35,619 nucleotides of DNA from the IMG/VR virus record IMGVR_UViG_3300033154_000599, positions 1 through 35,619 of that record; one strand, given 5' to 3'. Of this stretch, positions 4,876 to 34,451 are shown piece by piece. This DNA is from a virus. Positions within the stretch are counted from its first letter, which is position 1. Each line of letters begins with the position of its first letter. Position numbers and translations under genes: made by a program. Under the pieces are notes generated by a model. That model did not search any database. It was not told the DNA's origin and saw only the letters and a program-made list of their open reading frames with translations.

Positions 4876-5096
4876 GAATGTTTGTTTACGATAAAGTTAT
4901 GATAATCGCAGAAGATGCGGAGCGAGCTGTCACCTTGCTAACGCAAGAGGGCTATAAAGTTAAGGACGAAAAATTAGAAAAAATTAGGCCGGATGAAAAT
5001 TTGAAAATTATAGATGGTCTTGATGGCCCGGCCGAAATTAGAAAAGCATCATATTGGATTGAAGAATTTGGTCGTGGAATCCATGGGGATTCTTAA
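4872..5096 (+). CDS. Hypothetical protein, 74 aa
   Basis: Starts in an ATGA overlap with the cupin gene, behind a GGAG ribosome-binding site in the cupin 3' end. The small acidic product has a beta-alpha-like start (FVYDKVMIIAEDAERAVTLLTQEGY). No family was recognised. It ends in a TAATG overlap with the next gene, so the three genes are translationally coupled. Confidence 0.6.
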   Translation: MRMFVYDKVMIIAEDAERAVTLLTQEGYKVKDEKLEKIRPDENLKIIDGLDGPAEIRKASYWIEEFGRGIHGDS

Positions 5097-5299
5097 TGGA
5101 TGATTTAGAAGATAGGCTTAAATGGCTTGCAGATTGGGTTTATCTTTATACTGTTGTTGATGGCCTTGATACTGGTAATCATGTTCTTGTTAAAGAACAT
5201 CTTATTCAGAAATGGTCTGACCCCAAATACGTTCTTTCTGATGAGGAAGAAAGGCTCTTAGGAGTTATTCTAGAACATGCTGGGGATGGTAATTGTTGA
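5096..5299 (+). CDS. Hypothetical protein, 67 aa
   Basis: Starts in a TAATG overlap with the preceding gene. The product is acidic and helical, with aromatic residues clustered near the start (WLADWVYLYTVVDGLD). No family was recognised. It is followed by a 71-bp gap holding the ribosome-binding site of the gene at 5371; no other feature was seen in that gap. Confidence 0.58.
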   Translation: MDDLEDRLKWLADWVYLYTVVDGLDTGNHVLVKEHLIQKWSDPKYVLSDEEERLLGVILEHAGDGNC

Positions 5300-5370
5300 T
5301 GTAGGTCCGGATCTCAATAGGGTTATGAAGATTAATTCAAACATAAGCTAACGGTCATAGGGGCTTCATT

Positions 5371-5724
5371 ATGGCAACGTTTTCAAAAGAATTTTTAAGC
5401 GGTAGTACTAATGGCAGACCCATCAAGGTCGTTGCTATAGCTACAGCTGGTACATTGCTCCACACGGCTGTGTCTGGGATGGCTGATATTGATGAGGTCT
5501 GGCTTTACTGTGTCAATACGGATACTGTTACTCGCAAGCTGACAATTGAATTCGGTGGTACTACGGACCCAGATGATCTTATTGAAATTGGAATTCCTGC
5601 TGAGGCCGGATTGGTCCTGGTTTGCCCGGGGTTGGTCTTACAGAATTCTTTAATTATAGGTGCTTTTGCTGATGCAGCTAATGTCCTCTGCATCAGCGGT
5701 TATGTGAACAGGATCACAGCATGA
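5371..5724 (+). CDS. Small structural-type phage protein
   Basis: ATG follows AGGGG by about 8 bases. The 117-residue product is beta-rich, with FLSGSTNGRPIKVVAIATAG, a central WLYCVNTDT and a terminal GYVNRITA. Its position beside a tailspike-like gene suggests a virion or fibre accessory protein. The role is not established. It overlaps the next ORF by an ATGA. Confidence 0.65.
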   Translation: MATFSKEFLSGSTNGRPIKVVAIATAGTLLHTAVSGMADIDEVWLYCVNTDTVTRKLTIEFGGTTDPDDLIEIGIPAEAGLVLVCPGLVLQNSLIIGAFADAANVLCISGYVNRITA

Positions 5725-5933
5725 GTCGTCGCGAAAAACCAAGATTGGGTCAACGCCCTAGCCCTGCTTACGGTGCTCGTAGTGCGGCAGGTGATTATAT
5801 CGCCACAACAGAACCTAATTACCCAATCGACGCCACGGTCCCAGTAGGCACAGCTCCGTTTGTTACTTTACCTCCTGTAACCGACGACGTAATCGTTCAA
5901 GCTAACTTGTTTGTGGTCCGATGCACGGCTTAA
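5721..5933 (+). CDS. Hypothetical protein, 70 aa
   Basis: Starts in an ATGA overlap with the gene before it. The N terminus is basic (MSRREKPRLGQRPSPAYGAR), followed by Pro/Thr/Val-rich sequence of extended character. It probably belongs to the tailspike-associated group on context. No family was recognised. Confidence 0.55.
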   Translation: MSRREKPRLGQRPSPAYGARSAAGDYIATTEPNYPIDATVPVGTAPFVTLPPVTDDVIVQANLFVVRCTA

Positions 5934-6283
5934 CCTCTAAGGTACATGACTGGATCGTAAGCCATGGAACAGCAGCTTTAAGTGGTCTTACGCTTGCTGA
6001 TTTGCTTTTGGATCAGCCAGCTAATCTTCTCGAACTGGTCAATGGCCGCTTTGGTGCTGACGACGTCGTGACACAGCTTGAGCTGGACTCGGCTCTGGTT
6101 AAGGTAGCTGGCACTGTTCTCCCGGACGGGGCAGACCTGGGGGATTACGCCAGAGCCGTGGTCACGTTCGACCGCAAGGATCGGGCACCAGCAGACGATG
6201 GACTGCGGCTCCATTTGATCCGCCTTCACGATGTTGGTTTGGCAGTTGTTTCAGTATTGCTTAAACATAAGTTAGAAGGATAA
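5921..6283 (+). CDS. Hypothetical protein, 120 aa
   Basis: ATG lies inside the last codons of the previous gene (13-bp overlap). The 120-residue product has helical segments (LSGLTLADLLLDQPANLLELV) and ends two bases before the tailspike-like ATG. Its 3' half is visibly richer in G+C than the upstream genes, marking the start of the GC-rich island. No family was recognised. Confidence 0.58.
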   Translation: MHGLTSKVHDWIVSHGTAALSGLTLADLLLDQPANLLELVNGRFGADDVVTQLELDSALVKVAGTVLPDGADLGDYARAVVTFDRKDRAPADDGLRLHLIRLHDVGLAVVSVLLKHKLEG

Positions 6284-6284
6284 T

Positions 6285-8018
6285 ATGGCGACCCACTACA
6301 TCGACCACAGCGCAGCTAACAATGGAGACGGGACCGACGCTGCCCAAGCGGCGAGCGGAGGGGCTGTTGGAGCGTTCAATGGACTGATTGCCAACCTTGG
6401 TAGTATTGCTGCCGGGGACACTGTCTGGATTCGTCGTTCGGGGACGGCTGAGGCCCTCTCGGCTGTGTTTACACTTTGGGACGGCGGGGGTTGCTACGGT
6501 TGGCCCAAGAGCACTGATCCAACATACGCTACTCGCCCAGCCGCAGGCACAAGCGCAGGCTGGGACGCAGACTCTGACGACTACGCAGAGTTCACGACTG
6601 CGAGTACAACGGACATCCTAGTGCGTCCGACAGGAGCAGTCGCTGCCATGGCAGTGCGGCGTATCCACATGCTGACTTCGAGCACGTCTAGCTCGCAGAA
6701 GTGTGTTCACTTGACCACTAACTCGCAGAACACATCCTTCACCTACTGCAAGTTCGAGAACAGCGCTGGGAGCAATGGGAGATGCTTCCACATTGAGGAG
6801 TCGAGCAACAACACCATCGACAACTGTATCTTCTTGCGGTCTAGCGTGACCGCTACAGGCACTTCCTGGTACGGCCTCATATTCCTTTACGGGTTCGTGA
6901 CTGCAGCCGCGCAGTTCAACACGATCTCGAATTGTTCTTTCGACGTGGGACCGATTGGGGACTGTAGCGGAAGCCAGGGCGCAGCCGTATTCATCGGTAT
7001 GTCCTACAGCTACACATACTGCAAGTACAACACCGTCTTCAACTGCACGTTCTCGGGCGCGGCGACCAAAGACCAGACGGGCTACGGACAGGGCAGTGAT
7101 CCGTGGGTGACCCTGATCGGGCAAAGTCTCAAGTTCTTGGACTGCACAATCGAGGACACCGAGACGGGCACGGACTTCACGAAGCAAAGCCTCTTCATCA
7201 ACAGCTACGACATCAAGATAGAGCGCCTGAAACTGATTCGCGGTGGTCGAGTTAGAGACGACTCCGCATCACGACGTAATAGCATTGGGATCTACGAGTC
7301 TTCGTTCGTTAGTGGGGTCAGTAATCCCATCTCCATTATCAGTTTGGCGGGCGACAATACCAAGTTTACCGTTCGCGGGGCTACTTTTAGCGCGACCACT
7401 GATTCTGTTTATGTTAGTGGTGACGATGTTGATACTTTGCTCGTGGGCTGCACCTACGCAGGAGCGGTCTCAACGGTCACTGGTGCGCGTAGTTACGTCA
7501 CTCAACTGGGGTCTGGATCACTGGTCGGGATCTGGAACAAGTTCACTGCCGGGGGATTGCTCACCGCCGACGCGGGCGTGATTAGAACATCCGGCGTGTC
7601 AGCCTGGTCTATCCGCCATCTCCCTCCTGCGGGTGCAGTTTCTGGCGGGACACCCATGAGCATTGGATCGCCTGAGAATCCAACGATCTTCGTGAACGTG
7701 GCTAGCTCGGGCGCTAAGACGTTCACGCTGTACGCGGCCCACAAGAACTTTTCGGCAGCAACCCCTGATGGCGTTTCATTCTGGTTCGAGATTTACTACT
7801 TGAACGCGAATAACAACCTCAAGCTCGCGAGTAGCAGAGGCGCTGCACTCGTGGCTGACGGGTCCACCTGGACTGGTGACACAGGTTTGACGGTGGTTCG
7901 GCAGTCCCTGGCCGTGACGCTTCCGACTGCGCAGGTGGTCTCTGCGGTTATTTATGGGGCTCTTCCCTTCGAGAGCGCCGCCTACGGCTTCATAGATCCA
8001 TTGATTGTAGTGACGTAA
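6285..8018 (+). CDS. Parallel beta-helix tailspike-like protein
   Basis: The 577-residue product starts MATHYIDHSAANNGDGTD, an opening common in right-handed beta-helix proteins. It has many short turns of the type NTISNCSFDVG, NTVFNCTFSGA and LKFLDCTIED, at roughly 20-25 residue spacing between about 120 and 400. A beta-rich C-terminal domain (about 440-577) follows. Such proteins bind or cleave host surface glycans. The G+C content is far above flanking genes and codons end mostly in C or G, which suggests recent acquisition. No catalytic residues could be assigned. Confidence 0.72.
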   Translation: MATHYIDHSAANNGDGTDAAQAASGGAVGAFNGLIANLGSIAAGDTVWIRRSGTAEALSAVFTLWDGGGCYGWPKSTDPTYATRPAAGTSAGWDADSDDYAEFTTASTTDILVRPTGAVAAMAVRRIHMLTSSTSSSQKCVHLTTNSQNTSFTYCKFENSAGSNGRCFHIEESSNNTIDNCIFLRSSVTATGTSWYGLIFLYGFVTAAAQFNTISNCSFDVGPIGDCSGSQGAAVFIGMSYSYTYCKYNTVFNCTFSGAATKDQTGYGQGSDPWVTLIGQSLKFLDCTIEDTETGTDFTKQSLFINSYDIKIERLKLIRGGRVRDDSASRRNSIGIYESSFVSGVSNPISIISLAGDNTKFTVRGATFSATTDSVYVSGDDVDTLLVGCTYAGAVSTVTGARSYVTQLGSGSLVGIWNKFTAGGLLTADAGVIRTSGVSAWSIRHLPPAGAVSGGTPMSIGSPENPTIFVNVASSGAKTFTLYAAHKNFSAATPDGVSFWFEIYYLNANNNLKLASSRGAALVADGSTWTGDTGLTVVRQSLAVTLPTAQVVSAVIYGALPFESAAYGFIDPLIVVT

Positions 8019-10649: not shown

Positions 10650-10663
10650 GGTATTTGAATCCC

Positions 10664-11713
10664 ATGTCTAGGGTTCTTATTATATCCGATCTACATTTTG
10701 GGATTCCGCAAAAGCTTGATGATATTCTTTGGTCTGTTAAGACTGCTAGGGCGTATGCTGCCAAGAATGATATCGAAAAAGTATTTGTTTTAGGTGACGT
10801 TTTTCACGATCGAGTAACCTATAACATCGAAGTTATGAATGTGGCATATGAGTTCTTTGATGAAACTCGTCAAATGGGCCAAGAATGGATAGCTTTTCCG
10901 GGCAATCACGATATGCCACTCCGAAATTCGTGGAGTATCAATACTCTTAAACCCTTAGATAAGGTTCTGACTGTTGTTAATGATATCAAGTTAGCTAAAG
11001 TTTATGGTCAGCGTTTTTGGATTGTTCCGTTTATTTATTACGAGTCTGTCTATATGAAGGTTCTGAAGCATATTGAGAAACAATATGAGGATGGTGATGT
11101 TCTCTTAACCCATGTTGGAGTGAATAACGCAACATTAAATGAATGTTTTTTAATTAAGAATTGGAGTATTGTTGAATTTACGAATTCTAAGTTCGACCGG
11201 GTTTTTACCGGGCATTTTCATTGTCACCAGAAAGTTGGTAAAAATGTCTGGTATCCTGGGAGCCCCATCCCTTTCCGGTTCGACGAAGGGATGGTGCCTC
11301 ATGGATTTATCGATTACGATATAATGAGTAGAGAAGTCACTTTTGTTGAGATTTTCGATCTTAATCTTGTTGAAGGATGCCGTCCTCCGGATTATATCAC
11401 TATTACCGATGATATGATCGAGGAATATGGGTGCTTTACTGGCGATAATGTACGTGTTCAGTTAAATAGGGATTATAGTAAAGACGAACTTATGCGGATG
11501 AGGGAATCTTTGCGTGATCGTGGTGCTTCAAACATCAAATTAAATAAGGTTGTAGAAGAACATATTGATCTTGAAGATGAACGTTCCTCTACACTTTCCC
11601 TCAAGTCACCTTCGGAGTTATTTGAAAAGTGGGTGACTTATGATAATCCTAAAAAATTGGATGTTGATTTGCTAAAGAAGTTAAATGATGAGATTTTGTC
11701 TGAAGTGCCTTAG
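10664..11713 (+). CDS. sbcD: SbcD/gp47-like recombination nuclease subunit
   Basis: ATG at 10664 is taken over the in-frame TTG at 10655 because the protein naturally starts MSRVLIISDLHFG. The 349-residue product carries the Mre11-type phosphodiesterase motifs: DLH (9-11), GDVFHD (44-49), GNHD (80-83), LTH (148-150) and GHFHCH (183-188). It forms the nuclease subunit of the SbcCD/Mre11-Rad50 complex that processes DNA ends in recombination and replication; T4 gp47 is the phage counterpart. The SbcC/gp46 subunit follows 11 bp downstream. Confidence 0.9.
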   Translation: MSRVLIISDLHFGIPQKLDDILWSVKTARAYAAKNDIEKVFVLGDVFHDRVTYNIEVMNVAYEFFDETRQMGQEWIAFPGNHDMPLRNSWSINTLKPLDKVLTVVNDIKLAKVYGQRFWIVPFIYYESVYMKVLKHIEKQYEDGDVLLTHVGVNNATLNECFLIKNWSIVEFTNSKFDRVFTGHFHCHQKVGKNVWYPGSPIPFRFDEGMVPHGFIDYDIMSREVTFVEIFDLNLVEGCRPPDYITITDDMIEEYGCFTGDNVRVQLNRDYSKDELMRMRESLRDRGASNIKLNKVVEEHIDLEDERSSTLSLKSPSELFEKWVTYDNPKKLDVDLLKKLNDEILSEVP

Positions 11714-11724
11714 GAGAGAAATTA

Positions 11725-13860
11725 ATGTTAGATATTGAATCAATTGAGTTGCGTAATTTTCTTTCTTATGGTGATTATATCACTAAGTTAAAAGTTTCTA
11801 AGCAAGGTCCGACTTTAGTTCTTGGAAAAATTGAGGATGATGAGGATTCGACCTCTTCTAATGGTGCAGGCAAAAGCAGTTTGTTAACCGCTTTTATTTG
11901 GTGTTTATTCGGACGAACAATTATTAATGCTAATCCGGGCGACAAAGTTATCAACTTTTTTATTGGTAGTACCTGTTATGTTAAAATCAAAACTTCGGAC
12001 GGTTGGGAAATTATTAGGACTAGGGATTGCAACAGCCATTCTGAGCTTGTACTTTTAAAAGACGGCGATGATGAAACTAAATCTACCAACACTAACGCCC
12101 AAAAGAAGCTTAATGAACTTTTTGGATTGGATTATGAAATTTTCACATCTAGCATTTTTTGTGGCCAATTTGGAAAACCGTTCTTAGAAATGGTCTCTGT
12201 TAAGCGCAAGGAAGCTATCGAGCGCCTTCTTGGTCTCGATAAATTAAATGGTTATGCTGATTCTGCCAAATATCGGTCTAAAGAAGCTGAAACAGATCAA
12301 GAAAACATTCGGAGTAGTGTTGATGTTCTTAAATCTAGTGGTGAGCAATATCAGGAACAAATTCAAGAAAACCTGACTAGTGAAGTAGAATTTGATTTAA
12401 ACCGAAAAACTAGGATCGATGGATTGTCAACCAATATTGTTGAGGTGCAAGAGAAAATTAAGAACGCTCCGATCCATGATATTGAAAAACTTGGAAATCG
12501 TTGGGCATCTTGTAATGAGGTTGTTTCTAAGATTAATGAATATCACGATCAAATCGAGGAAAGCAATAATCGAATTGTTATTTTAGAAGGAGCAACATCT
12601 CGGGCTCAATCCACATTGAAACGATATTCAGAATGGAAACCGGAGGCAGAACCTAATCTTGAGCAAATTAAAACCCAGCTTGCTTTAGCTCAGAAAGCTG
12701 AGGATAAAATGTCTCAGCTTTCTGACAAATCAATTGACATTAAAACAGAAATTCAGCGTCAACAAATTGAAGTTAATGCTCTCCTTGAAGTTATTCAGAA
12801 TTGGGGAGATCAGGTTAATTCAAATTGTACATCTTGTTTGCAAGAGATTGGTGTTGAACATGCGTCTAAGCAAATTGATGAATGTGAACAGAAAATTGGA
12901 TCAGCTGAAAAATTTATTTTTCTAAAAGAACAACAAAAATCGAAAGTGGACGAAATTGTTGAACGTCTTAAGCTTGTGAAGAAACCAGACATAACGGCTA
13001 CCCAAGCTCAAGCAGTAATCAAGAGCAACAATCTTATTCAGGGTGAAATAAGCAATTATCAATCTGTTATCCAAGAATCGAAGGAGGAATGTCTTAAATT
13101 AGTTGAATCTAATAATAAATTGGTAGCTGTTGTTCAATTAGTCACTGAAAGACTTGAAAAATTAGCTCCCGACATTACTTTAGATGAAGCTCAAGCGGAA
13201 ATGAAAGACCGTGTTCATTTGTGTTCTCAAGAACATCAATTAAAGAATCAGATTGAAGAACTTCGTGTTTCTAAAAACCCTTATGCTTACTTGATCGAAA
13301 ATCTCAAAGAATTGTTAAAGACTAATCAGAAAAAATTAAAAGATTTTGACGATAAACTGGAGAATTTGGATACGCTTTTTAAACATTATCGTTATATTTA
13401 TCGTTCTTATTCAGATCGTCGGAAGATTAAGAAATGGTTGATGGCTGAGCTTATTCCTTATTTAAACAATCGTGTTCATTACTATTTAGATAAATTCGAT
13501 GTTAATGTTAATATTAAGTTTACTTCGACTTTAGATGTTGAATCTGATAAATGGAGTTATGAATTCTGTTCTGGTGGAGAGAGAAAGCGAATTGATCTCT
13601 CCATCATGTTTGGTCTTTACGATCTTTATACTTCTATTTATGGTCGCCAGTGTAATATTATGGTTTTAGATGAGGTTGATAGCAGACTAGATGAACATGG
13701 GGTCGAAGCGTTTTCAGATGTTGTTCATGATTTGACTGCTAGTTCTGGATCCCCAGATACCATATATGTGATTTCGCATAAGAGGGAGTTAGAATCGGTC
13801 TTTCCTAATCAGATAGTAATTAGGAAGAGGAATATGTTCTCTGTAGTTGATCAAACATAA
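11725..13860 (+). CDS. sbcC: SbcC/gp46-like recombination ATPase subunit
   Basis: ATG follows GGAGAG. The 711-residue product has the Rad50-type layout. The N-terminal half ATPase has SNGAGKSS (45-52). Long coiled coils follow on either side of a zinc hook CTSC (368-371). The C-terminal half has signature CSGGERKR (about 614-621) and Walker B IMVLDEVDS (about 646-654). It is the ATPase partner of the gp47-like nuclease encoded immediately upstream. Length is above T4 gp46 and within the short phage range of the family. Confidence 0.93.
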   Translation: MLDIESIELRNFLSYGDYITKLKVSKQGPTLVLGKIEDDEDSTSSNGAGKSSLLTAFIWCLFGRTIINANPGDKVINFFIGSTCYVKIKTSDGWEIIRTRDCNSHSELVLLKDGDDETKSTNTNAQKKLNELFGLDYEIFTSSIFCGQFGKPFLEMVSVKRKEAIERLLGLDKLNGYADSAKYRSKEAETDQENIRSSVDVLKSSGEQYQEQIQENLTSEVEFDLNRKTRIDGLSTNIVEVQEKIKNAPIHDIEKLGNRWASCNEVVSKINEYHDQIEESNNRIVILEGATSRAQSTLKRYSEWKPEAEPNLEQIKTQLALAQKAEDKMSQLSDKSIDIKTEIQRQQIEVNALLEVIQNWGDQVNSNCTSCLQEIGVEHASKQIDECEQKIGSAEKFIFLKEQQKSKVDEIVERLKLVKKPDITATQAQAVIKSNNLIQGEISNYQSVIQESKEECLKLVESNNKLVAVVQLVTERLEKLAPDITLDEAQAEMKDRVHLCSQEHQLKNQIEELRVSKNPYAYLIENLKELLKTNQKKLKDFDDKLENLDTLFKHYRYIYRSYSDRRKIKKWLMAELIPYLNNRVHYYLDKFDVNVNIKFTSTLDVESDKWSYEFCSGGERKRIDLSIMFGLYDLYTSIYGRQCNIMVLDEVDSRLDEHGVEAFSDVVHDLTASSGSPDTIYVISHKRELESVFPNQIVIRKRNMFSVVDQT

Positions 13861-17362: not shown

Positions 17363-18007
17363 ATGGGTTTGTTAACCGGAACTTCGGTTTATCTCGTTGG
17401 TGCGATTGATCATGCTAGTGATCCACACAAATGGCGTCGAGAGTTAACCAATAATTTGTTACATCCATTGGGGGTTAAAGTTTACGATCCTCTTGTCAAA
17501 CCATCATGGCTTGACGAGGTTTATCCACACATCGAGGATGATGTTGTTTCGGATTTTTTGGTTTTTAAGCGTCTTCTTGGAGAGCCTGGGTCCATTCCTG
17601 AAGAGCAGCATGAAATGGTTTGGGATCGGATGCATGGTATTCGAGAATTGTGTTTGCGTTACGCGCACGATTGTAGCTTTATGATCGTAAACCTTCCCAA
17701 ACAATTCACTATAGGTACTTTAGAGGAAATCGGAGTTGCGGCTGATGCTGGGAAGCCTGTTTTCTTTGTACTTCCTGACGGACCTACGACATCTACGTGG
17801 TTTCCGCCTCAGGTATATGATCGGTTGGAAGAATTCCATGAATACGCATTTAGTTCTATGGAAGAATTATCTAATCATCTTCGGGCGATCGATTCTGGAG
17901 ATGTAGCCGTAGATAGGTTGAGATGGGTTTTTCTACATTATTTTTCAGATAGGAATGTAATCAATGAGTTTTCAAATCGCGAACCAATTGGAAGTCAATC
18001 TTCTTAA
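17363..18007 (+). CDS. Nucleoside 2-deoxyribosyltransferase-like enzyme
   Basis: ATG follows AAGAGGTG. The 214-residue product has the nucleoside 2-deoxyribosyltransferase pattern: TSVYLVGAIDHASDPHKWRR, VYDPLVKP, then CSFMIVNLPKQ and a late GTLEEIGVAADAGKPVFFVL. The GTLEE Glu fits the position of the catalytic nucleophile. Such enzymes exchange or hydrolyse bases on deoxynucleosides and salvage nucleotides. It overlaps the DeoC-like gene by 44 bp and opens the nucleotide-metabolism run that includes purZ. Confidence 0.72.
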   Translation: MGLLTGTSVYLVGAIDHASDPHKWRRELTNNLLHPLGVKVYDPLVKPSWLDEVYPHIEDDVVSDFLVFKRLLGEPGSIPEEQHEMVWDRMHGIRELCLRYAHDCSFMIVNLPKQFTIGTLEEIGVAADAGKPVFFVLPDGPTTSTWFPPQVYDRLEEFHEYAFSSMEELSNHLRAIDSGDVAVDRLRWVFLHYFSDRNVINEFSNREPIGSQSS

Positions 18008-18713
18008 TTCTAATACTAAGCCTGAGTATGTTTCTGAGTTTGTATTAAAAAATCGGATCCCTACGATTGTAGCATATCCTGAGTATATTGCCCCATTAGT
18101 AGCTCATAGAGCTATCCGCAATGGTCCGTACAAAATAATTTGTGCTATCGACTTCCCAGCAGGATCCAATTTTGCGATGGACAAGATTTTCCGATCTAAT
18201 CCTGATTTTGTCGGGGCAGATGGGTTCGATTTCCTACTATCCACGAATCGGACTGATATTGAACTTTATAACGAGATGATGGCTATTTATCGATTTATTA
18301 AAGGCAATCGTCCTATGTCTCAAATCAGGTGGGTATTAAAATTGCATACGCGCAAATCGCAAGGTTTAAGTGCACTTAAACACATGAAGAAAGCGCCGCC
18401 TGCTTTTGTTCGTCTCAATTCTGAACTAGAAATACCTAACCTAGGTGTTACGAAACATCGGGAGTATATTAAACTTGCGAGGAAACAGACTCCTTATCCG
18501 ATTAAGGTATGTGGAAATGTTGATCTGACCCTCATTGAAAAATTGGCTAACGAGGCAAATGTTAAGCGGTTTGATGTGTCATTGGATCAGGCTGAAGCGA
18601 TCATTCGTGAACTTTCAAATAGGTCAGCGGTTCCAAGGACAACTCCAACAGCTCCACAACCTCAAGGACCAGCGGTGAAGAAGGTGGGTAATGTTGGAAG
18701 GATTAGGATCTAA
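17964..18713 (+). CDS. DeoC-like aldolase, catalytic Lys missing
   Basis: ATG follows AGGAATG inside the previous gene. The 249-residue product aligns by pattern with deoxyribose-phosphate aldolase: IVAYPEYIAPLVAHRAI, CAIDFPAGSN, FVGADGFDFLLS, IRWVLKL, then FVRLNSELEI and PIKVCGNVD. The GADxxD aspartate and the late Lys (IKVCG, for GFKPAGG in the E. coli enzyme) are kept. The Schiff-base Lys in FIKTSTG is Arg in FVRLNSE. It may be a degenerate or altered aldolase acting on deoxyribose phosphates. The C-terminal tail is Pro-rich. Confidence 0.55.
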   Translation: MSFQIANQLEVNLLNSNTKPEYVSEFVLKNRIPTIVAYPEYIAPLVAHRAIRNGPYKIICAIDFPAGSNFAMDKIFRSNPDFVGADGFDFLLSTNRTDIELYNEMMAIYRFIKGNRPMSQIRWVLKLHTRKSQGLSALKHMKKAPPAFVRLNSELEIPNLGVTKHREYIKLARKQTPYPIKVCGNVDLTLIEKLANEANVKRFDVSLDQAEAIIRELSNRSAVPRTTPTAPQPQGPAVKKVGNVGRIRI

Positions 18714-19173
18714 AGTCATTTCTTGGGACAGCTATTTTTTACAAATGGCCGAGTTGGTTTCTACAAGATCTAAAGATCAAAATACTCATATTGGCGCAGT
18801 AATTGTAGGCCCGGATAAAGAGGTTAGATCTACGGGATATAATTCATTTCCTAGAGGATTGAATGATTTCCTGCCTGAGCGTCAGGAACGACCTGAAAAG
18901 TATAGTTGGATGGAACATGCCGAACGCAATGCTATTTATAATGCTGCTAGGCATGGCGCCGCTCTTAAAGGGTGTACTATGCATCTTAATTGTCATATTC
19001 CATGTACCGGTTGTGCTCGTGCTATTATTCAATCTGGTATTGCGGAAGTGGTACTTGGCAAACCTAAGAATCATTCTCAAAAATGGATTGAAGAAGCAAC
19101 AAAATCTGAACAAATGTTTAGAGAAGCAAGAATTAAGGTTCGTTTACCTAACTCTCAGGATTTAATATTATAA
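18691..19173 (+). CDS. dCMP deaminase
   Basis: ATG follows AAGGTGG and overlaps the DeoC-like gene by 23 bp. The 160-residue product has the zinc-dependent cytidine/deoxycytidylate deaminase motifs HAERNAI (H76, E78) and PCTGCARAII (C105, C108). It deaminates dCMP to dUMP, feeding thymidylate synthesis; a base-modification role is also possible. It sits in the run with nucleoside deoxyribosyltransferase-like and purZ genes. Confidence 0.9.
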   Translation: MLEGLGSKVISWDSYFLQMAELVSTRSKDQNTHIGAVIVGPDKEVRSTGYNSFPRGLNDFLPERQERPEKYSWMEHAERNAIYNAARHGAALKGCTMHLNCHIPCTGCARAIIQSGIAEVVLGKPKNHSQKWIEEATKSEQMFREARIKVRLPNSQDLIL

Positions 19174-19424
19174 TGGTGCACTCCTTTCATATTATTAAAG
19201 AAATTTGCTTAGATCATCAGATTGATGTTACATTAATGCATGGGTCTAATTTAGAGCATGTTTCTTTTTTTATGAAACGAGAACCATATAATACTAAGAT
19301 ATATGGTTTATGTAATGGTGCAAAAGTCACTTTTGATGTTAAAAATCGTCGAGAATATGATTTAGCAAATCCGGATAGTATTTCACAAATGAGTGAGTAT
19401 TTGTCCTCCACGATCTGGATATGA
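19173..19424 (+). CDS. Hypothetical protein, 83 aa
   Basis: Starts in a TAATG overlap with dCMP deaminase and ends in an ATGA overlap with the exonuclease gene. The 83-residue product is mixed alpha/beta (SFHIIKEICLDHQIDVTLMH) with no recognised motif. It is translationally coupled on both sides, so it probably takes part in the same pathway. Confidence 0.6.
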   Translation: MVHSFHIIKEICLDHQIDVTLMHGSNLEHVSFFMKREPYNTKIYGLCNGAKVTFDVKNRREYDLANPDSISQMSEYLSSTIWI

Positions 19425-20218
19425 TAATAATTGGTGTTGACGCCGAAACTAACGGTTTCAAAAACGAAAAAGATGAGTATGACGAAGAACGCAGTGAACT
19501 GTGTGAAATCGGAGCATGTCTTTTTCATGTTGAGTCTAAAACTGTTCTAGCCCAATTCGGTAAGATCTATCGAATTCATAACTGGGGCGAAGAAGCGGCC
19601 GAGGTTCATCAAATCCCCAAAGAACTTAGTGATTTGATGCCATATGTTCCTCCACAAGAGGAAGAAAATCCTTTTAAGCTTATTAGTGGTAATATGGCTA
19701 GATTTGTGGTAGCTCATAATGCTCCACATGATTATCCTTATTTTGCTAAGTTGTGGCCGGATTTTTTGAGTATTCCTTGGTTGTGTACTCAAAGAGATTT
19801 ACCTCATAATGATAAGTTAAGGCGTCCAGCTTATTCGAAAAGGTTAGGGCATCTTTGTGTTGATTATGGGATTCAATTTAGCGGATGGCATCGTGCTTTA
19901 GTTGATGCAGAAGCATGTGCTCGTATTGCATCTTTCCATGATCTTGAAGCAGCTTATGAGGAGAAATTAAAGTCTAAATTTCGGCTAGTTACCTATGGTG
20001 AATTTATTAAAGACATTAATAAAGAAACTATGTCTCAAATTCCTTCAGTGCTTGAAGATGATAGGAGATATCGTTGGAACACCAATGAGTGTCCAAGGGC
20101 TTGGTCTAAGGATTACCTGCCAGAAGAATTTATTGAACCAGACGTGCGGTATATCAAAGAGATAACAGGTGACCGCTGGAAGTTCGAAATTGAACCTATG
20201 CCACCTAAAACTTACTAG
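19421..20218 (+). CDS. DEDDh-family 3'-5' exonuclease (DnaQ-like)
   Basis: ATGA overlap with the previous gene. The 265-residue product has the DnaQ/RNase T catalytic set: D7 and E9 in GVDAETN, D104 in HNAPHD (99-104), and H157/D162 in HRALVDAEA. The first about 175 residues form the nuclease; the C-terminal part is unmatched. It degrades DNA or RNA from the 3' end and could proofread a separate polymerase. It lies 10 bp upstream of purZ, so a link to Z-DNA replication is possible but unproven. Confidence 0.85.
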   Translation: MIIIGVDAETNGFKNEKDEYDEERSELCEIGACLFHVESKTVLAQFGKIYRIHNWGEEAAEVHQIPKELSDLMPYVPPQEEENPFKLISGNMARFVVAHNAPHDYPYFAKLWPDFLSIPWLCTQRDLPHNDKLRRPAYSKRLGHLCVDYGIQFSGWHRALVDAEACARIASFHDLEAAYEEKLKSKFRLVTYGEFIKDINKETMSQIPSVLEDDRRYRWNTNECPRAWSKDYLPEEFIEPDVRYIKEITGDRWKFEIEPMPPKTY

Positions 20219-20228
20219 GAGATGATAA

Positions 20229-21335
20229 ATGAAATTAGGCAAGTTTAATGTAGTAGTTGATGGGCAATGGGGCAGTTGTGGCAAGGGTTTAATTGCTGGA
20301 TACTTGGGTCAGCGTTATGGGGTAGAAGCAGCTAGTACTAATAATCTCCCTAATGCTGGACACACTGTTGTCTTAGAAGACGAAACGCGTTTCATTTCTA
20401 AAATTTTGCCCGTTACTAGCTATCTTAATACCCAGGAACAGCATGTTCAGTCCTACATCGGGGCGGGTGCCGGGTTCTTCCTAGAACAACTCTTTAAGGA
20501 GATGAAGGAATGTGGAGTTGCTCCTGAGGATGTTAGGATCCATCCACGAGCTATGGTAGTTACTGAAGAACATGCGGCCATGGAACGAGGAGCCCGAGGT
20601 ACCAAGCATATTGCTAGTACCATGCAAGGTTCAGGGGCGGTCCGTGCAGAGAAAATCATGCGGGGAGCTAACGTTAAACTGGCCCGTGATTTTCTTGAAT
20701 TAAGATCGATGATCACTGAAGATTGGATTTTTGAAGTTAACGGAAAGCTCCCCGGGACGATGTGGTTACATGAAGGTAGCCAAGGATTCAGTTTAGGAAT
20801 GAACCACGGAAGCCATTATCCGCAATGTACCTCCAGAGAATGTACTACAACTCGTGAGTTAATGGATATGGGTCTCCCGCCCGATAGTGTTGGGGATGTT
20901 TATTTAGTAGTCCGTCCATTCCCGATTCGGGTTGGAAATGTCATTGAAAATGGGCAAGAGGTTGGTTATTCGGGCGATGCTTATCCTGGTCAGGAAGAAA
21001 TGACCTGGGCTCAAATTAAGGAATTTGCCAACTATCCAGCGGATTTTGACCTACATGAGATGACCACGGTTACTAAGCGTCTAAGGAGAGTATTTAGTTT
21101 CTCAATGGATCAAGCTCTCCGTGCTTCGATAGTAAATGGAGCAACTAAAATTGCTCTTAATTTTGCTAACTATCTAGACTATTCATGTTTCCAAACTAAG
21201 GGGACGGATATTACCGAACTTCCAACTAAGGTTCGAGCATTTATCGATTCAATCGAAAGTTCGCTCAATCTTCCAGTCACTATCGTTGGTACAGGGCCAG
21301 CAGTGGACCATGTTTGGAATCTTGATAACGATTAA
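20229..21335 (+). CDS. purZ: PurZ, 2-aminoadenylosuccinate synthetase
   Basis: ATG follows AGGAG. The 368-residue protein belongs to the adenylosuccinate synthetase superfamily but is shorter than bacterial PurA (about 430). The N terminus reads VVVDGQWGSCGKGLIAGYLG; in PurA the loop is GDEGKGK and its Asp is the catalytic base acting on IMP. Here it is S16, the substitution described for the phage enzymes of S-2L and phiVC8 that condense dGMP with aspartate. NNLPNAGHT (38-46) keeps the catalytic His45. The PurA guanine-recognition TKxD is replaced by LNFANYLD (310-317), consistent with ATP rather than GTP use. I infer synthesis of the 2-aminoadenine (Z) precursor. The gene is downstream of the deoxynucleotide genes. 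Confidence 0.88.
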   Translation: MKLGKFNVVVDGQWGSCGKGLIAGYLGQRYGVEAASTNNLPNAGHTVVLEDETRFISKILPVTSYLNTQEQHVQSYIGAGAGFFLEQLFKEMKECGVAPEDVRIHPRAMVVTEEHAAMERGARGTKHIASTMQGSGAVRAEKIMRGANVKLARDFLELRSMITEDWIFEVNGKLPGTMWLHEGSQGFSLGMNHGSHYPQCTSRECTTTRELMDMGLPPDSVGDVYLVVRPFPIRVGNVIENGQEVGYSGDAYPGQEEMTWAQIKEFANYPADFDLHEMTTVTKRLRRVFSFSMDQALRASIVNGATKIALNFANYLDYSCFQTKGTDITELPTKVRAFIDSIESSLNLPVTIVGTGPAVDHVWNLDND

Positions 21336-22181: not shown

Positions 22182-23249
22182 ATGAACTCGTTGGCTGAAT
22201 ATATCTGGATTGATGGAACTGAACCTGTTGCGCGTTTAAGGTCTAAAACTAAGGTTTTAGACTTGCTTGACTTTCCCTCAAGGCTCGCTCGAATAGAGGC
22301 CCTTGGGCAGAATCCTAATTTGGAATTGATCCCCGTTTGGGGTTTTGATGGGTCTAGTACTAATCAAGCTGATGGTTCGACGTCTGATTGTATTCTTAAA
22401 CCGGCATGTGTAGTCCCTGATCCAACCAGAAACCCTGCACGTGATGTTTTGGTTATGTGCGAGGTTTTAAGTGCAGATTTAACCCCTGATAAGAATAACC
22501 ACCGTTCTAGGACTGCAGAGCTAGCTGGGCATCTCGCTTCTGAAGAAATGCTTTTTGGAATTGAACAAGAATACACCTTCTTTAAAGGCCGAACACCCCT
22601 TGGGTGGCCTGAGGGGGGTTATCCTGCTCCACAAGGTCCTTTTTATTGTGGTATTGGTGCAGACGAAGTTTTTGGGCGCGATATTGTTGAGGAGCATCTT
22701 GGGGCATGTGTTACCGCTGGCCTTCGAATCTCGGGGATTAATGCCGAAGTTATGCCAGGACAATGGGAGTTCCAGATTGGCCCCGCTGGTCCGTTAGAAG
22801 TAGGCGATCATCTTTGGTTAGCTAGATATCTTCTCTATCGAATTGCTGAGAAGCATAATGTTAATGTTAAATTAGATCCTAAACCGATTGGTGGGGATTG
22901 GAATGGTGCTGGTGCTCATACCAATTTTTCTACTTTAAAAATGAGGAGTGAAGGTGGGTTGGCTGTATGTATCGAGGCTGCTGAAGCTTTAAGGCGATCT
23001 TTTGAGAGAGATGGTTTTCCAAAAGAATACGGTCATGGTTATGAATCTCGCTTGACGGGTGCTCATGAAACTTGTTCTTATCGAGAATTCAAGTATGGTG
23101 TGGGGGATCGAACCGCTTCAGTTCGGATTCCTCTTCACGTTGAAGTTAAGGGTTTTGGATATATTGAAGATCGTCGCCCGTGCGCTAATATTGACCCGTA
23201 TCAAGTCGTGTCGTTTTTAGCAAAAACTGTTTGGCGGGCGGGCGATTGA
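22182..23249 (+). CDS. glnA: Glutamine synthetase, type II
   Basis: ATG follows TAAGGAATG. The 355-residue product is a complete GSII, matching the eukaryotic/rhizobial/planctomycete type rather than bacterial GSI. It has WGFDGSST (53-60), FGIEQEYTF (125-133, metal-binding Glu), INAEVMPGQWEFQ, GDWNGAGAHTNFSTLKMR, DRTASVRIP and YIEDRRPCANIDPY. It joins ammonia and glutamate using ATP. Glutamine feeds purine synthesis, including GMP made by GuaA, so the gene could enlarge the dGMP pool used by PurZ. GSII in a phage is rare. Its end overlaps the convergent iscU by 49 bp. Confidence 0.93.
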   Translation: MNSLAEYIWIDGTEPVARLRSKTKVLDLLDFPSRLARIEALGQNPNLELIPVWGFDGSSTNQADGSTSDCILKPACVVPDPTRNPARDVLVMCEVLSADLTPDKNNHRSRTAELAGHLASEEMLFGIEQEYTFFKGRTPLGWPEGGYPAPQGPFYCGIGADEVFGRDIVEEHLGACVTAGLRISGINAEVMPGQWEFQIGPAGPLEVGDHLWLARYLLYRIAEKHNVNVKLDPKPIGGDWNGAGAHTNFSTLKMRSEGGLAVCIEAAEALRRSFERDGFPKEYGHGYESRLTGAHETCSYREFKYGVGDRTASVRIPLHVEVKGFGYIEDRRPCANIDPYQVVSFLAKTVWRAGD

Positions 23250-23620
23250 GATTTCTGTTGATAATCCTTAATTGCAGCTTTGATCGCATCTTCAACTAAG
23301 ACCGAACAATGAATCTTGACCGGAGGCAATGAGAGTTCCTCTACAATACATGTATTCTTAATTGTAAGAGCCTCCTCTACTGTTTTGCCCTGGATCCATT
23401 CGGTAGCTAAAGATGATGACGCAATGGCCGAGCCACAACCAAAGGTTTTGAATTTAGCTGTTTCAATTACTCCCTCCACAACTTTTATTTGTAAACGCAT
23501 TACATCTCCACATTCAGGAGCACCTACAACCCCGGTTCCTACTTTGGGATCGTTTTTATCTAACGTCCCGACGTTGCGCGGATTATTGAAATGGTCGATT
23601 ACTTTTTTACTATAAGGCAT
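23201..23620 (-). CDS. iscU: IscU/NifU-N iron-sulfur scaffold
   Basis: The 139-residue product has all ligands of IscU: C37 and D39 in PECGD, C62 in FGCGSAIASSS, and C105 in LPPVKIHCSVL. Length matches IscU with a short C-terminal extension. It assembles 2Fe-2S clusters on a scaffold for delivery to apoproteins. No cysteine desulfurase or chaperone is nearby, so it must use host IscS and HscAB. It is the second gene of a minus-strand pair; the upstream gene (23610-24083) overlaps it by 11 bp. The 3' end overlaps glnA. Confidence 0.93.
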   Translation of the reverse strand: MPYSKKVIDHFNNPRNVGTLDKNDPKVGTGVVGAPECGDVMRLQIKVVEGVIETAKFKTFGCGSAIASSSLATEWIQGKTVEEALTIKNTCIVEELSLPPVKIHCSVLVEDAIKAAIKDYQQKSQSPARQTVFAKNDTT

Positions 23621-24365: not shown

Positions 24366-24368
24366 TTG

Positions 24369-24851
24369 ATGAATAACCGGAGGATAGATATCCCGGTCGA
24401 GCTTTATAGTCAAATTCATCAACTGATGCCGATAATTTGTGTTGATACTGTTGTATATGCAGATAATAAAATCTTTTTAGTTAGTCGTGCTAATGAACCT
24501 GAACAGGGCCAATGGTGGTTTCCTGGTGGCCGTGTTTTAAGAAATGAACGGCTAAGCCGTGCTTCCCAGAGAATTGTTAAGAATGAAGCCGGGATTGATA
24601 TCAGTCGTGTTAAATATCTTGGGCACGATGAGACCATGTTTAATACAGATCCGTTTGGGCATGGGCAAGGCACACATACTGTCAACTTTGTGTTTACAGC
24701 GAACGTTTCTGAATTAGCTTTATTTCATGTTATATTAGATAATCACCATACTGCATATTCGACGTTCAGTTTTGAAGAGATTTACTGTAGTGATATGCAT
24801 CCGTATGTTAAAAGATTTACAGCTTTAGCTGAAGGAGTTTTTCGCCAATAG
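24369..24851 (+). CDS. Nudix hydrolase, GDP-mannose mannosyl hydrolase-like
   Basis: ATG at 24369 is preferred to the in-frame TTG three bases earlier. The 160-residue product has QWWFPGGRVLRNERLSRASQ then RIVKNEAGI (residues 48-76). This matches the altered Nudix box of GDP-mannose mannosyl hydrolase (Gmm), GGRVxKDExLxxAFxRLTxxELG, more closely than the standard GX5EX7REUXEEXGU. The enzyme class hydrolyses nucleoside diphosphates linked to another group. In a Z-DNA phage a dGTP- or dATP-trimming function is conceivable but only speculation. Confidence 0.78.
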   Translation: MNNRRIDIPVELYSQIHQLMPIICVDTVVYADNKIFLVSRANEPEQGQWWFPGGRVLRNERLSRASQRIVKNEAGIDISRVKYLGHDETMFNTDPFGHGQGTHTVNFVFTANVSELALFHVILDNHHTAYSTFSFEEIYCSDMHPYVKRFTALAEGVFRQ

Positions 24852-30473: not shown

Positions 30474-33323
30474 ATGCCTGTTTTCTTATCACCAGGAGTA
30501 TTTCCAAGAGAGATCGATCTTAGCGTTCTCCCCGCTAACTCATCCGGTCTAATTCCAGCCTTTATCGGCGCTGCTCAAAAAGGGCCTGTTGACGAGCCCC
30601 GTTTAATCACTAATCCTGAGCAATTCGTTGAGGTGTTTGGAAATCCTCTTCCTGAAGCTAACCTTGGTTATGCTGTCCTCGCTTATCTAGAAGAAGGTAA
30701 CGCAGCTTTTGTATTGCGTGTTGCCGTAGAATGTGATGAAGGCCAAGCACAAGAATTGGCAGACATTTGTGTTGACCTTACTGGCAACCGCATTCAAGGT
30801 TGGGGCCGTGTGTCGGTCTTCCAAAGTATTGACTTTGGTCGTCTAAACCTTAGAATTCCTACAGTAGAGTCCCCGCTTGTTTTCCATACCGATGCTGTCC
30901 TAGATATCGACTATAATGACCTTGACGTATCGACGACCGATGGTCCGACTGTCGCCACTTTGTCGTTTGTAGGTTCAGATCTTTCTGACATGTATACTGG
31001 TTCAACTGATGAGGGCTTTATAGTTCTTATTACTTCCGACCCAACCACTGGCGTTTTAGATGGTGCTGGGTTTGATGTGTTCCGTACTAGCGATGGAGTT
31101 ATCATCGCCTCTGGCACTCTAGTTGATACTGGAGGAGGCGTTTCAGCACCGGTTGCTGTTGGAACTGGCGACGATGATACCGGACTGATCTTCAGAGTTG
31201 AAGTGACCGGCAGCTCTCCAATCGAAAGCGATGACACTTTCACCTTCTCTGCTCGCCCAGACAATCTTACTCTTTCAATTGAAGTCGAAGGTGCTGCTAG
31301 CGTTCCACCAACCTTTACTTTCACCCCAGCGACCTATACCGACCCAGACGTGTTTGTCACAGACTTTAACACTTTAGTTGGTGCTGCAGTCGATTTTATA
31401 GCTGGGTTTGATGACACAAATTTATTCATCAGAACTCGCGGAGCTGGTGATCGCATCCAGCTTACCGGAACTGAAGCATTTGCCCTTGAAGTTGGTTTAC
31501 AACAGTGGGCTCTTGACATTCCGCGTAGTTGGTTAGTTGGTGCCGATACCGGACCATATAACATTAACGCAAATAACAACCGTGTTTCTATTGATGTGAT
31601 CGAAGAAGATGTAGTCACTAGTTTGGCAGCTACCATTTCGATCAGCACAATGGCGACGCCAGTTTCAGTAGCTAGCTCATTACACTTAGGTGGAGTCAGT
31701 CTTGGTGAGAGATTTTATGAAGCTCTAGCAATTCGTGTTACCGATGATGATCGTCGAGTATACGTTATTGCCTCAGAAGATCACCAATTTGGCCAACTTA
31801 AAATGATGGCTGATTTCAGTCATATTAAAACACTGCGATTCGCAGAAGAAGTTAACTTCCAAGTTCTCACCCGGGCCTTCCGTGGATTCTTCGATCCTCG
31901 TGTTGAATTGCCCGAATCTGGCATAATTACCCCATCGGTTCCTCTTTCTTGTGAAGTTGATCCTGCAGGTGCCCAATGTGCCCTTGATGTCGCTTACTAC
32001 GCCAACATTGTTGGTTGGTTAGTGGCCCCCTCTCCAGGCACATGGCTTGAGGGTTATACTGTAACAGTTGAGAACTTCAACTCTCAACCAGGCCGATATA
32101 TGGTCCGTGTTTTTGATACCGCAGGCTTAGAAATTCCAGATGCTCGGGCTGATGATGTCAGCTTCGACCCATCGGATGCTCGTTACATTGGCAACGTTGT
32201 CAATCCTGGAAGCACTATTGGTGGTGTTAACGGAAACAGTTACATTAATTGGGAAGATCGTCCAGTATTCCTTGAGAACGATCCTAACGATTTGTCTAAT
32301 TTCGCTGTCAGACAACCTGGTGATATTAACCGCCGAGCTTTTGCAGGTTTGGCCAATGGTATTCCACTTGACCCGCTCTTTAGCGCTGCGTTAGACGAAG
32401 CTGTTATTGGTAATGTTGCGCGTAGTACCGGAATCTTCGCGTTCCAGAACCCCGAAGTTTTTGACATTACATTACTGGCAACCCCCGGATTTAGTTCTGG
32501 TGCAGTTATTGCCCAGTCATTAGCTATGTGCGAAGGTCGTGGCGACTGCATGTACTTAGTAGATCCGCCATTCGGCCTTCGTCCGCAGCAAGTTGTTGAC
32601 TGGCACAATGGTATGCTCTTCAGCGATTTGCAAGTCTCACTTAATAGCTCTTATGGCGCCTTGTACTGGTCATGGGTTGAAGTATTTGATCAATTTAATG
32701 GCGGAACCATCTTTATCCCGCCATCCGGGCATGTGTCAGCAGTCTATGCTAGAACTGCTCGTGAAACTGAACTTTGGTTTGCTCCCGCTGGATTGAATCG
32801 TGGTCAACTAAAGACTGTTCTTAATCTTGAATTTAACCCAACTCAGGGTGAACGAGATTTGCTTTATGGGTTCAACAATGCAGTTAACCCATTAGTTAAT
32901 TTCCCGCAAGACGGTGTTACAGTTTTTGGTCAGCGTACTCTTCAACGTAAGGATAGTGCTCTTGATCGTGTCAATGTTAGAATGCTGCTCATTGCTTTGA
33001 AGAAGGCGCTGGTTCCTTTGTTAAGGAATTTCCTTTTCGAGCCTAATGATCAGATTTTGTGGAAACAAGTTAAGGGCGCAATTACCCCATTCCTTGCGGA
33101 TGTTCGGGCTCGTCGTGGGCTTACCGCATTTGATGTGATTGTTGATGAACGGAATAATACCCCAATTCGTCGTGATCGTAATGAGCTTTGGGTTAGTGTA
33201 CTCCTTAAACCTACTCGAACTGTTGAGTTTATTGTACTTAATTTAGTTATTCTGAGGACCGATCAAAGTTTTGCTGCTGAAGAAGTTCTTGCAGCTGCTG
33301 GAATTGATGTTGTTGCAACATAA
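30474..33323 (+). CDS. Tail sheath protein (gp18-like)
   Basis: The 949-residue product has the sheath N terminus (SPGVFPREIDLSVLPANSSG, LIPAFIGAAQKGPVDEP, FVEVFGNPLPEANLGYAVLA) and the C-terminal domain (LRNFLFEPNDQILWKQVKGA, ITPFLADVRARRG, then LWVSVLLKPTRTVEFIVLN). These polymerise around the tube and contract to drive DNA delivery. It is longer than T4 gp18 (659 residues); a Gly/Thr/Asp-rich beta insertion at about 130-350 accounts for much of this and should protrude on the tail surface. The region is more GC-rich than its neighbours, as often in highly expressed structural genes. Confidence 0.94.
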   Translation: MPVFLSPGVFPREIDLSVLPANSSGLIPAFIGAAQKGPVDEPRLITNPEQFVEVFGNPLPEANLGYAVLAYLEEGNAAFVLRVAVECDEGQAQELADICVDLTGNRIQGWGRVSVFQSIDFGRLNLRIPTVESPLVFHTDAVLDIDYNDLDVSTTDGPTVATLSFVGSDLSDMYTGSTDEGFIVLITSDPTTGVLDGAGFDVFRTSDGVIIASGTLVDTGGGVSAPVAVGTGDDDTGLIFRVEVTGSSPIESDDTFTFSARPDNLTLSIEVEGAASVPPTFTFTPATYTDPDVFVTDFNTLVGAAVDFIAGFDDTNLFIRTRGAGDRIQLTGTEAFALEVGLQQWALDIPRSWLVGADTGPYNINANNNRVSIDVIEEDVVTSLAATISISTMATPVSVASSLHLGGVSLGERFYEALAIRVTDDDRRVYVIASEDHQFGQLKMMADFSHIKTLRFAEEVNFQVLTRAFRGFFDPRVELPESGIITPSVPLSCEVDPAGAQCALDVAYYANIVGWLVAPSPGTWLEGYTVTVENFNSQPGRYMVRVFDTAGLEIPDARADDVSFDPSDARYIGNVVNPGSTIGGVNGNSYINWEDRPVFLENDPNDLSNFAVRQPGDINRRAFAGLANGIPLDPLFSAALDEAVIGNVARSTGIFAFQNPEVFDITLLATPGFSSGAVIAQSLAMCEGRGDCMYLVDPPFGLRPQQVVDWHNGMLFSDLQVSLNSSYGALYWSWVEVFDQFNGGTIFIPPSGHVSAVYARTARETELWFAPAGLNRGQLKTVLNLEFNPTQGERDLLYGFNNAVNPLVNFPQDGVTVFGQRTLQRKDSALDRVNVRMLLIALKKALVPLLRNFLFEPNDQILWKQVKGAITPFLADVRARRGLTAFDVIVDERNNTPIRRDRNELWVSVLLKPTRTVEFIVLNLVILRTDQSFAAEEVLAAAGIDVVAT

Positions 33324-33371
33324 TGTTATTCAGAAATTATAAAACTAAAAATAAACTGAAGGAGATATAAA

Positions 33372-33899
33372 ATGCCTGGATTTAATCTCGGTGCTACCAC
33401 AGACGGAAAGAATAATTTAGCTGAATATCGACGCAATCACAGATGGCGTGTGGCTGTAATTCAGGGTGATGTCATCACCCCACAGCAATGGCTATATTTG
33501 CAAAAAGCCGCTAGGCCAAACTTTGAATTTGATGAGGTCAAGATTCACCATAACCAAGAAGAAGCCTATGTAGCGGGCAAGCAAAGATGGCAGCCCATCG
33601 ATTTTGTCTTTTATGATGCAATCGAGGAAGGCGATATTTCCTCGTCGGTTTTCGGCTGGATTCTTGGTGGTGATGGCAGCTCTGTTGCGGATGGTAGTTC
33701 GGCTGACGTCAATCTACCAAGATCATACAAGAAAGATCTAACCCTTGAAATGTTGGATGGTTCTGGAGACGTAGATGAAACATGGACTTTGCATGGTGCG
33801 TTTCCTCTGAAAGTTGATTGGAGTGCTCTCGATTATACGAACACCGAAATTATTTTGATTACTGCTAACGTGAGATTTGATCGCGCCACCCGAGCGTAA
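33372..33899 (+). CDS. Tail tube protein, paralogue 1 (gp19-like)
   Basis: ATG follows GAAGGAG, the strongest ribosome-binding site of the block. The 175-residue product starts MPGFNLGATTDGKNNLAEYR and shows the tube-fold pattern: HRWRVAVIQ, FEFDEVKIHHNQEEAYVAGK, then WTLHGAFPLKVDWSALDYTN before a final beta strand. Stacked hexamers form the inner tube. It is the first of two tandem paralogues. Confidence 0.82.
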   Translation: MPGFNLGATTDGKNNLAEYRRNHRWRVAVIQGDVITPQQWLYLQKAARPNFEFDEVKIHHNQEEAYVAGKQRWQPIDFVFYDAIEEGDISSSVFGWILGGDGSSVADGSSADVNLPRSYKKDLTLEMLDGSGDVDETWTLHGAFPLKVDWSALDYTNTEIILITANVRFDRATRA

Positions 33900-33920
33900 A
33901 ATTTATTGAGGTGAAACAGG

Positions 33921-34451
33921 ATGCCTGGATTTTTCCCGAGCGGGTCAATTGCGGATCCTGGAATCGATAGCAATGCAGAATATAATAGAGTACATCGGTG
34001 GGTCATTGAAAGTTTGGGATTTCCAGGCCCACCTTCTAGTGATAGACTAAGATTGCATGCCAAGTCAATTGGTTTGCCCACTTTGAAATTTGAAGAAGAA
34101 AAAATTAAAGGTGGTAGTAGTTATTATAAAATTGCTAAACGCGCTCATTGGGAAGATATTACTGTTAAATTTTACGACGTGTTTGGCTTATATAAAGTTT
34201 TTAAAGAATGGCAAGACAAGATTTGGACTCCAGCAGATGGGATCAAAAAGCCTTCTGATTATAAAGGCGCACCTGTTTTCCTTCTATTGGATGGTGAAGG
34301 TAATGAAGTCCAAAGATTTACATTGTCTGGAGCTTATCCAAGCAAAATTGATCATGGCGATTTAAGTTATGAGAACAGTACTATTAAATTGCTTACAGTT
34401 ACATATACTTATGATTTTGCTATCATAGATGCAGATGTAGCCACTACTTAA
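33921..34451 (+). CDS. Tail tube protein, paralogue 2 (gp19-like)
   Basis: ATG follows GAGGTGAAACAGG. The 176-residue product shares MPGF at the start and the same order of elements as paralogue 1: NRVHRWVIESLGFPGPPSSD, LKFEEEKIKGGSSYYKIA, DITVKFYDVFG, FTLSGAYPSKIDHGDLSYEN, then a hydrophobic strand. This copy is the closer match to T4 gp19. It may be the main tube subunit, with the other forming a cap or initiator ring, or both may alternate. Confidence 0.87.
   Translation: MPGFFPSGSIADPGIDSNAEYNRVHRWVIESLGFPGPPSSDRLRLHAKSIGLPTLKFEEEKIKGGSSYYKIAKRAHWEDITVKFYDVFGLYKVFKEWQDKIWTPADGIKKPSDYKGAPVFLLLDGEGNEVQRFTLSGAYPSKIDHGDLSYENSTIKLLTVTYTYDFAIIDADVATT

Follow-up and report, generated by a model that had tools for sequence, protein, structure and literature searches.

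A large tailed bacterial virus known only from metagenomes encodes a PurZ-type enzyme, the enzyme that lets a few small viruses replace adenine in their DNA with 2-aminoadenine (Z), and this PurZ belongs to an apparently undescribed, well-supported branch found mostly in large phage contigs (up to 436 kb). Some of these phages seem to copy their DNA with a different class of polymerase. The analyzed window is the whole record IMGVR_UViG_3300033154_000599, a genome fragment of 35,619 nucleotides. Its purZ gene starts with ATG, has no internal stop and encodes 368 aa. An earlier note had recognized this gene as PurZ from its sequence motifs, and the observation holds: the protein reads VVVDGQWGSCGKG, NLPNAGHT and IALNFANYLD as described there. 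The coordinates of the features are listed in Table 1, where labels beginning with G denote contigs of related phages and labels beginning with L denote loci recovered in the scans.

Table 1. Genes and other features of the 35,619-nt window and of related sequences.
Sequence	Coordinates	Strand	Feature	Basis
Window	20229-21335	+	purZ; N6-succino-2-amino-2'-deoxyadenylate (dGMP succinyl) synthase, PurZ type; Ser16, NAGHT 42-46, TTVT 279-282, N311-F312-x-N314	Profile, tree, alignment and structure comparisons (see text)
Window	19421-20218	+	DEDD 3'-5' exonuclease (DnaQ/Pol III epsilon-like), 10 nt upstream of purZ	RNase_T 1.3e-5; NCBIfam 3'-5' exonuclease 2e-13; conserved in 4 relatives
Window	19173-19424	+	Small protein of unknown function; end overlaps the start of the exonuclease gene	Coordinates; homologue only in G001
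Window	18691-19173	+	dCMP/cytidine deaminase-like protein	PF00383 2.2e-22
Window	17964-18713	+	Predicted deoxyribose-phosphate-aldolase (DERA) fold protein; activity unknown	AlphaFold pLDDT 88; Foldseek top hits DERA, E 1.4e-12; alignment to E. coli DeoC
Window	17363-18007	+	Nucleoside 2-deoxyribosyltransferase (NDT)-like protein with a YLxxxID motif as in DmtZ; possible dNMP glycosidase/transferase (inferred)	PF15891 9.4e-7, just under cut-off; motif comparison with phage DmtZ sequences
Window	24366-24851	+	NUDIX hydrolase	PF00293 2.6e-13; conserved in the three nearest relatives
Window	22182-23249	+	Glutamine synthetase GlnII (GSII); could support purine nitrogen supply (inferred)	NF041605 3.3e-147, 490 bits vs cut-off 500
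Window	23201-23620	-	IscU/NifU N-terminal protein	PF01592 6.7e-51
Window	30474-33323	+	Contractile tail sheath, marks the contig as a myovirus	PHROG 23 1.2e-77; nearest isolate matches ~41-43%
Window	10655-13860	+	SbcD/SbcC-like pair (T4 gp47/gp46 type)	PHROG 100 3.2e-41; PHROG 77 1.2e-89
L064 (G003 31792-34047)	5001-7256		Intein-like insertion inside PurZ, at the CTSR motif	
L067	3621-6083		Intein-like insertion inside PurZ, directly after NAGH	
L070	1869-5507		Intein-like insertion inside PurZ, directly after NAGH	
L141	4185-4949		MazG-like/dUTPase-family fusion protein adjacent to or near purZ	Motifs (MazG-like part)
L144	6107-6871		MazG-like/dUTPase-family fusion protein adjacent to or near purZ	Motifs (MazG-like part)
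L153	6093-6788		MazG-like/dUTPase-family fusion protein adjacent to or near purZ	Motifs (MazG-like part)
L179	6074-6904		MazG-like/dUTPase-family fusion protein adjacent to or near purZ	Pfam DUF1599 at 0.004
L011-L012	G001 about 56-77 kb		Array of 42 predicted tRNA genes (3 in the window)	
L043 (MH884512)	About 38875-42500 (record about 48.9-52.5 kb)		DnaE-like polymerase of Bacillus phage vB_BpsS-140, in a stretch with no annotated gene in the deposited record	
L058, L059, L061, L063, L065, L067, L068, L069, L137, L138, L139, L149	About 2-4 kb downstream of purZ		ThyX-like (Thy1) gene in the long-PolA sublineage	One member confirmed by Pfam
L086, L088, L091, L095, L102, L108, L113, L114, L119, L121, L122, L124			Bacterial fusions of a P-loop kinase-like N-terminus to a PurZ-like domain (about 530-580 aa) in Mesorhizobium, Sphingomonas, Leifsonia and others; function unknown	
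L097, L101, L103-L107, L109-L111, L116, L123, L127, L128			About 442-aa Ser-type PurZ-like proteins in Clostridia MAGs, a long separate branch	

The protein matched Pfam PF00709 (2.6e-31) and PHROG 1211 '2-aminooxy adenylosuccinate synthetase' (2.1e-58). Its best NCBIfam model was PurZ NF038379 (5.6e-65), but the score of 219.5 bits did not reach the curated cut-off of 300, which is an annotation threshold and not a biochemical property. The PurZ identity was supported by every test run apart from this threshold. The best solved structures by sequence were phiVC8 PurZ chains (1.6e-45). The AlphaFold model (pLDDT 93.4) was closest to 6fm1, PurZ with ATP and dGMP (E 9e-31, TM 0.82-0.87). However, archaeal short PurA structures (5k7x/2d7u) matched almost as well, so fold alone does not decide. 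Compared with the 86%-identical copy in a 185-kb contig, synonymous sites were saturated (pS 0.84) while pN was only 0.10, as constrained as the tail sheath, and every relative in the large-phage clade keeps the Ser. The motif is therefore not chance, nor is the gene a pseudogene.

Using the contacts published for S-2L PurZ (PMC8342488), 30 positions were mapped through an alignment. The window has Ser16, aligned to S23 of S-2L, S14 of phiVC8 and D14 of E. coli PurA in ORF numbering. It also keeps N42-A43-G44-H45, S130-T131, R145, Q185 and R234-V235. The T279-T280-V281-T282 loop, which contacts the aspartate substrate, stands where PurA has GATT, and the ATP-type site (NFxN/Q) N311-F312-x-N314 stands where PurA has TKxD, with N314 equal to N297 of phiVC8. 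Two differences from the characterized enzymes were found: Gly130 of S-2L PurZ is Ala129 in all 20 large-phage sequences, and the Tyr203 position is Gln199 in the window. Intein-like insertions invade the purZ active site at two sites, at the CTSR motif in G003 and directly after NAGH in L067 and L070.

A maximum-likelihood tree of 87 rows placed the window with the copies of G001 and G002 (100/100) inside a 33-row clade of viral contigs (100/100). That clade lies in the PurZ group (100/99) with phiVC8, S-2L, SH-Ab 15497, PMBT28 and others, while PurZ0 (100/100) and PurA (100/100) are apart. The earlier note had stated that placement inside PurA would count against its reading, and the tree showed no such placement.

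The genes from the NDT-like gene to purZ overlap or are spaced by at most 10 nt, so they look like one operon. Close relatives are G001 (185,177 bp, PurZ 86%), G002 (370,804 bp, 66%) and G003 (58,666 bp, 61%). Most of the gene order is shared, but in G002 purZ has moved about 170 kb from that block. A 46-bp terminal identity in G002 lies in an 18-bp tandem repeat, so it does not prove a complete genome. The protein upstream of the deaminase-like gene is predicted to have a DERA fold, and the listed Foldseek hits were deoxyribose-phosphate aldolases or unnamed aldolase-type entries. However, its sequence alignment to E. coli DeoC puts an Arg150, invariant in the window protein and its aligned relatives, where the Schiff-base lysine (K167) should be, so we do not call it an aldolase. 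The NDT-like neighbor shares the Tyr...Asp motif of DmtZ, but its Pfam match is below cut-off and no significant phmmer match to DmtZ was found, a combination that leaves its assignment to DmtZ undecided.

A first scan of genome contigs with three sequences found nothing, while one with a wider alignment recovered matches. Wider scans found the clade mostly in large contigs, all with Ser at the diagnostic position. In the phage collection 208 records matched. Among the rows listed the genuine PurZ records are at most about 83 kb, and no listed isolate relative was above 84 kb. The 735-kb record LR756503 looked like a huge-phage PurZ but is a normal PurA that keeps GDEGKGK and TKxD.

No MazZ, DatZ or DpoZ is in the window, as the earlier note had said, so datZ and mazZ are not next to purZ as in the Z-cluster (datZ-mazZ-purZ) of S-2L. 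Scattered relatives carry pathway helpers. Among 29 large PurZ records, a PF00206 PurB-like lyase was detected in nine including G001, and in a further locus, L061, one with the ADSL C-terminal domain lies about 3.4 kb from purZ. A YfbR/DatZ-family HD protein was detected in six of the 29, all in the sublineage with a long PolA and each about 9-11 kb from that PolA gene. These gave weak matches to known DatZ, and dATP specificity was not examined. No DatZ family was found in G001-G003, G016-G019 or G027, nor any HD domain in G001-G003. G002 has DUF6378 one gene downstream of purZ, and G003 has DUF6378 and DUF5664. In the same PurZ clade L151 has a DUF5664 gene whose ORF starts within the end of purZ, and L141, L144 and L153 have a gene next to or overlapping the end of purZ with a dUTPase-family C-terminus and a MazG-like N-terminus. 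The N-terminal call is ours from motifs, the only Pfam match for it being DUF1599 at 0.004, in the similar protein of L179. Different lineages thus pair PurZ with different pool enzymes, as reported for known Z phages (PMC12884076). In G001, the nearest relative, no DatZ or MazZ homologue was detected and no pool enzyme could be recognized except the NUDIX and NDT-like genes it shares with the window, so how its dATP is removed is unexplained.

Family-B polymerase was considered as replicase but was absent in 29 of 29 large PurZ records. A compact PolA as the sole polymerase was also considered, until a search with E. coli DnaE found split family-C genes. G001, G002, G016 and G027 encode DnaE in two pieces: an N piece with a PHP domain whose metal-site motifs look intact, and a C piece carrying PDIDID (PDIDLD in G027) and KFD/KWD, equivalents of E. 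coli D401, D403 and D555. DnaE is common in phages (1277 records), so it is the pairing with PurZ that stands out. The same genomes have a compact PolA of about 380-450 aa with motif A, B and C residues. All 13 contigs of 150 kb or more with compact PolA carry a Ser-type PurZ, though shared descent could explain that. The compact PolA of the relatives matched known DpoZ at no E <= 1e-3 and no recognizable DpoZ was found in them, but the window is a fragment, and whether its phage has a DpoZ is left undecided by these data. The DEDD exonuclease upstream of purZ resembles Pol III epsilon, which fits a family-C replicase and might be its proofreading partner, although their interaction was not examined.

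Compared with PurZ (DgsS) of Vibrio phage phiVC8, cyanophage S-2L and Acinetobacter phage SH-Ab 15497, the window enzyme falls in the same PurZ group with the same diagnostic residues and predicted reaction, but at 33-37% identity and in the separate large-phage branch; those phages are small sipho- or podoviruses with DpoZ or PrimPol. The NDT-like gene in the purZ operon, with its DmtZ-like motif but no significant sequence match to DmtZ, resembles the PurZ0 phages (Arthrobacter, Gordonia, Microbacterium; DutZ, DmtZ, DUF5664), and dUTPase-family, DUF5664 and PurB-like genes occur in some relatives, but PurZ0 is a separate clade. The 55-kb isolate Bacillus phage vB_BpsS-140 has the top-ranked isolate PurZ by tblastn (38%) and also encodes a DnaE. 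However, its PurZ branches at the base of the PurZ group with Heliobacterium and not in the large-phage clade. A match to the Hiyaa DmtZ in this phage is antisense to an annotated gene and was disregarded.

The interpretation in the earlier note, that 2-aminoadenine replaces adenine fully or partly, is partly supported. A Z genome is a reasonable inference but is not demonstrated: no virion DNA exists to analyze, and the nearest relatives lack a recognizable DatZ and DpoZ. The note treated the case as an unusual single phage, while it is one member of a large-phage PurZ clade. Its context is confirmed by the GSII and IscU genes and by the contractile sheath, two tail tubes, a baseplate hub and the gp46/47-like genes. 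'T4-like' holds for the contractile tail and the gp46/47-like genes, but the family-B polymerase of T4 is absent from all 29 related records tested. The proposed planctomycete host was not tested and no evidence for it was found; host and geography were not determined.

In the explanation we favor with moderate confidence, the enzyme would join dGMP to aspartate using ATP to make N6-succino-2-amino-dAMP (dSMP). Adenylosuccinate lyase, from the host or a phage PurB as in G001, would then release dZMP, kinases would raise it to dZTP, and a phage polymerase would put Z opposite T, so that adenine is wholly or partly replaced. In this view the replicative polymerase is the split DnaE found in the relatives, perhaps with the DnaQ-like exonuclease, and not a DpoZ. 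Because the window is a fragment, the polymerase and most pathway helpers are inferred from relatives. The sequence, the phylogeny, the active-site residues, the operon and gene order and the co-occurring genes in relatives come directly from our analysis, whereas the reaction, for which no assay was made, the presence of Z in virions, the role of the polymerase and the extent of replacement are inferred. PurZ activity is very likely, Z in virion DNA, fully or partly, is somewhat more likely than not, and replication by the family-C enzyme, given Z, is probable.

Other explanations appear less likely. The enzyme may be a genuine PurZ while Z is only a minor or transient component, or an intermediate toward another modified purine, with ordinary adenine in the bulk of the genome. 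The lack of a recognized dATP-removing enzyme in the nearest relatives, and the NDT-like and DERA-fold genes of unknown chemistry in the same operon, are consistent with this. However, other members do carry DatZ-family, DUF5664, DUF6378 or MazG-like/dUTPase proteins, S-2L PurZ itself consumes dATP (PMC8342488), and no dedicated further purine-modifying enzyme was recognized in the window. We consider this reading unlikely. It is more doubtful still that the protein is a PurA-like enzyme recruited to boost AMP synthesis during infection with a neutral Ser substitution. The superfamily, fold and Pfam family are shared with PurA, but the tree separates the two, the catalytic Asp, the TKxD GTP site and the GATT loop are all replaced by PurZ-type residues, and LR756503 shows what a genuine phage PurA keeps. 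An unrelated role, such as small-molecule or defense-related succinylation, is likewise unlikely. It may hold for uncharacterized bacterial PurZ-like proteins such as the kinase fusions, and Ser- and Gly-type PurZ-like genes exist in bacterial and archaeal genomes alongside normal PurA, but the kinase fusions fall outside the phage PurZ group and nucleotide-pool enzymes sit beside purZ in several large-phage relatives.

In the papers examined, Z-DNA is described from small sipho- and podoviruses using DpoZ or PrimPol. The 2026 survey of NCBI phages (PMC12884076) names no family-C polymerase, and two jumbo-phage overviews (PMC13282480, PMC7824862) name no PurZ. It is possible, though slightly less likely than not, that a whole lineage of large and jumbo myoviruses (up to about 0.4 Mb) builds 2-aminoadenine DNA, and that one branch, to which the window belongs, copies it with a split DnaE-type polymerase instead of DpoZ or PrimPol. 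If so, the largest Z genomes would be several-fold to about ten times bigger than known ones, Z tolerance would extend to a replicase class related to the bacterial chromosomal one, and a further set of pool-control genes would be opened to study.
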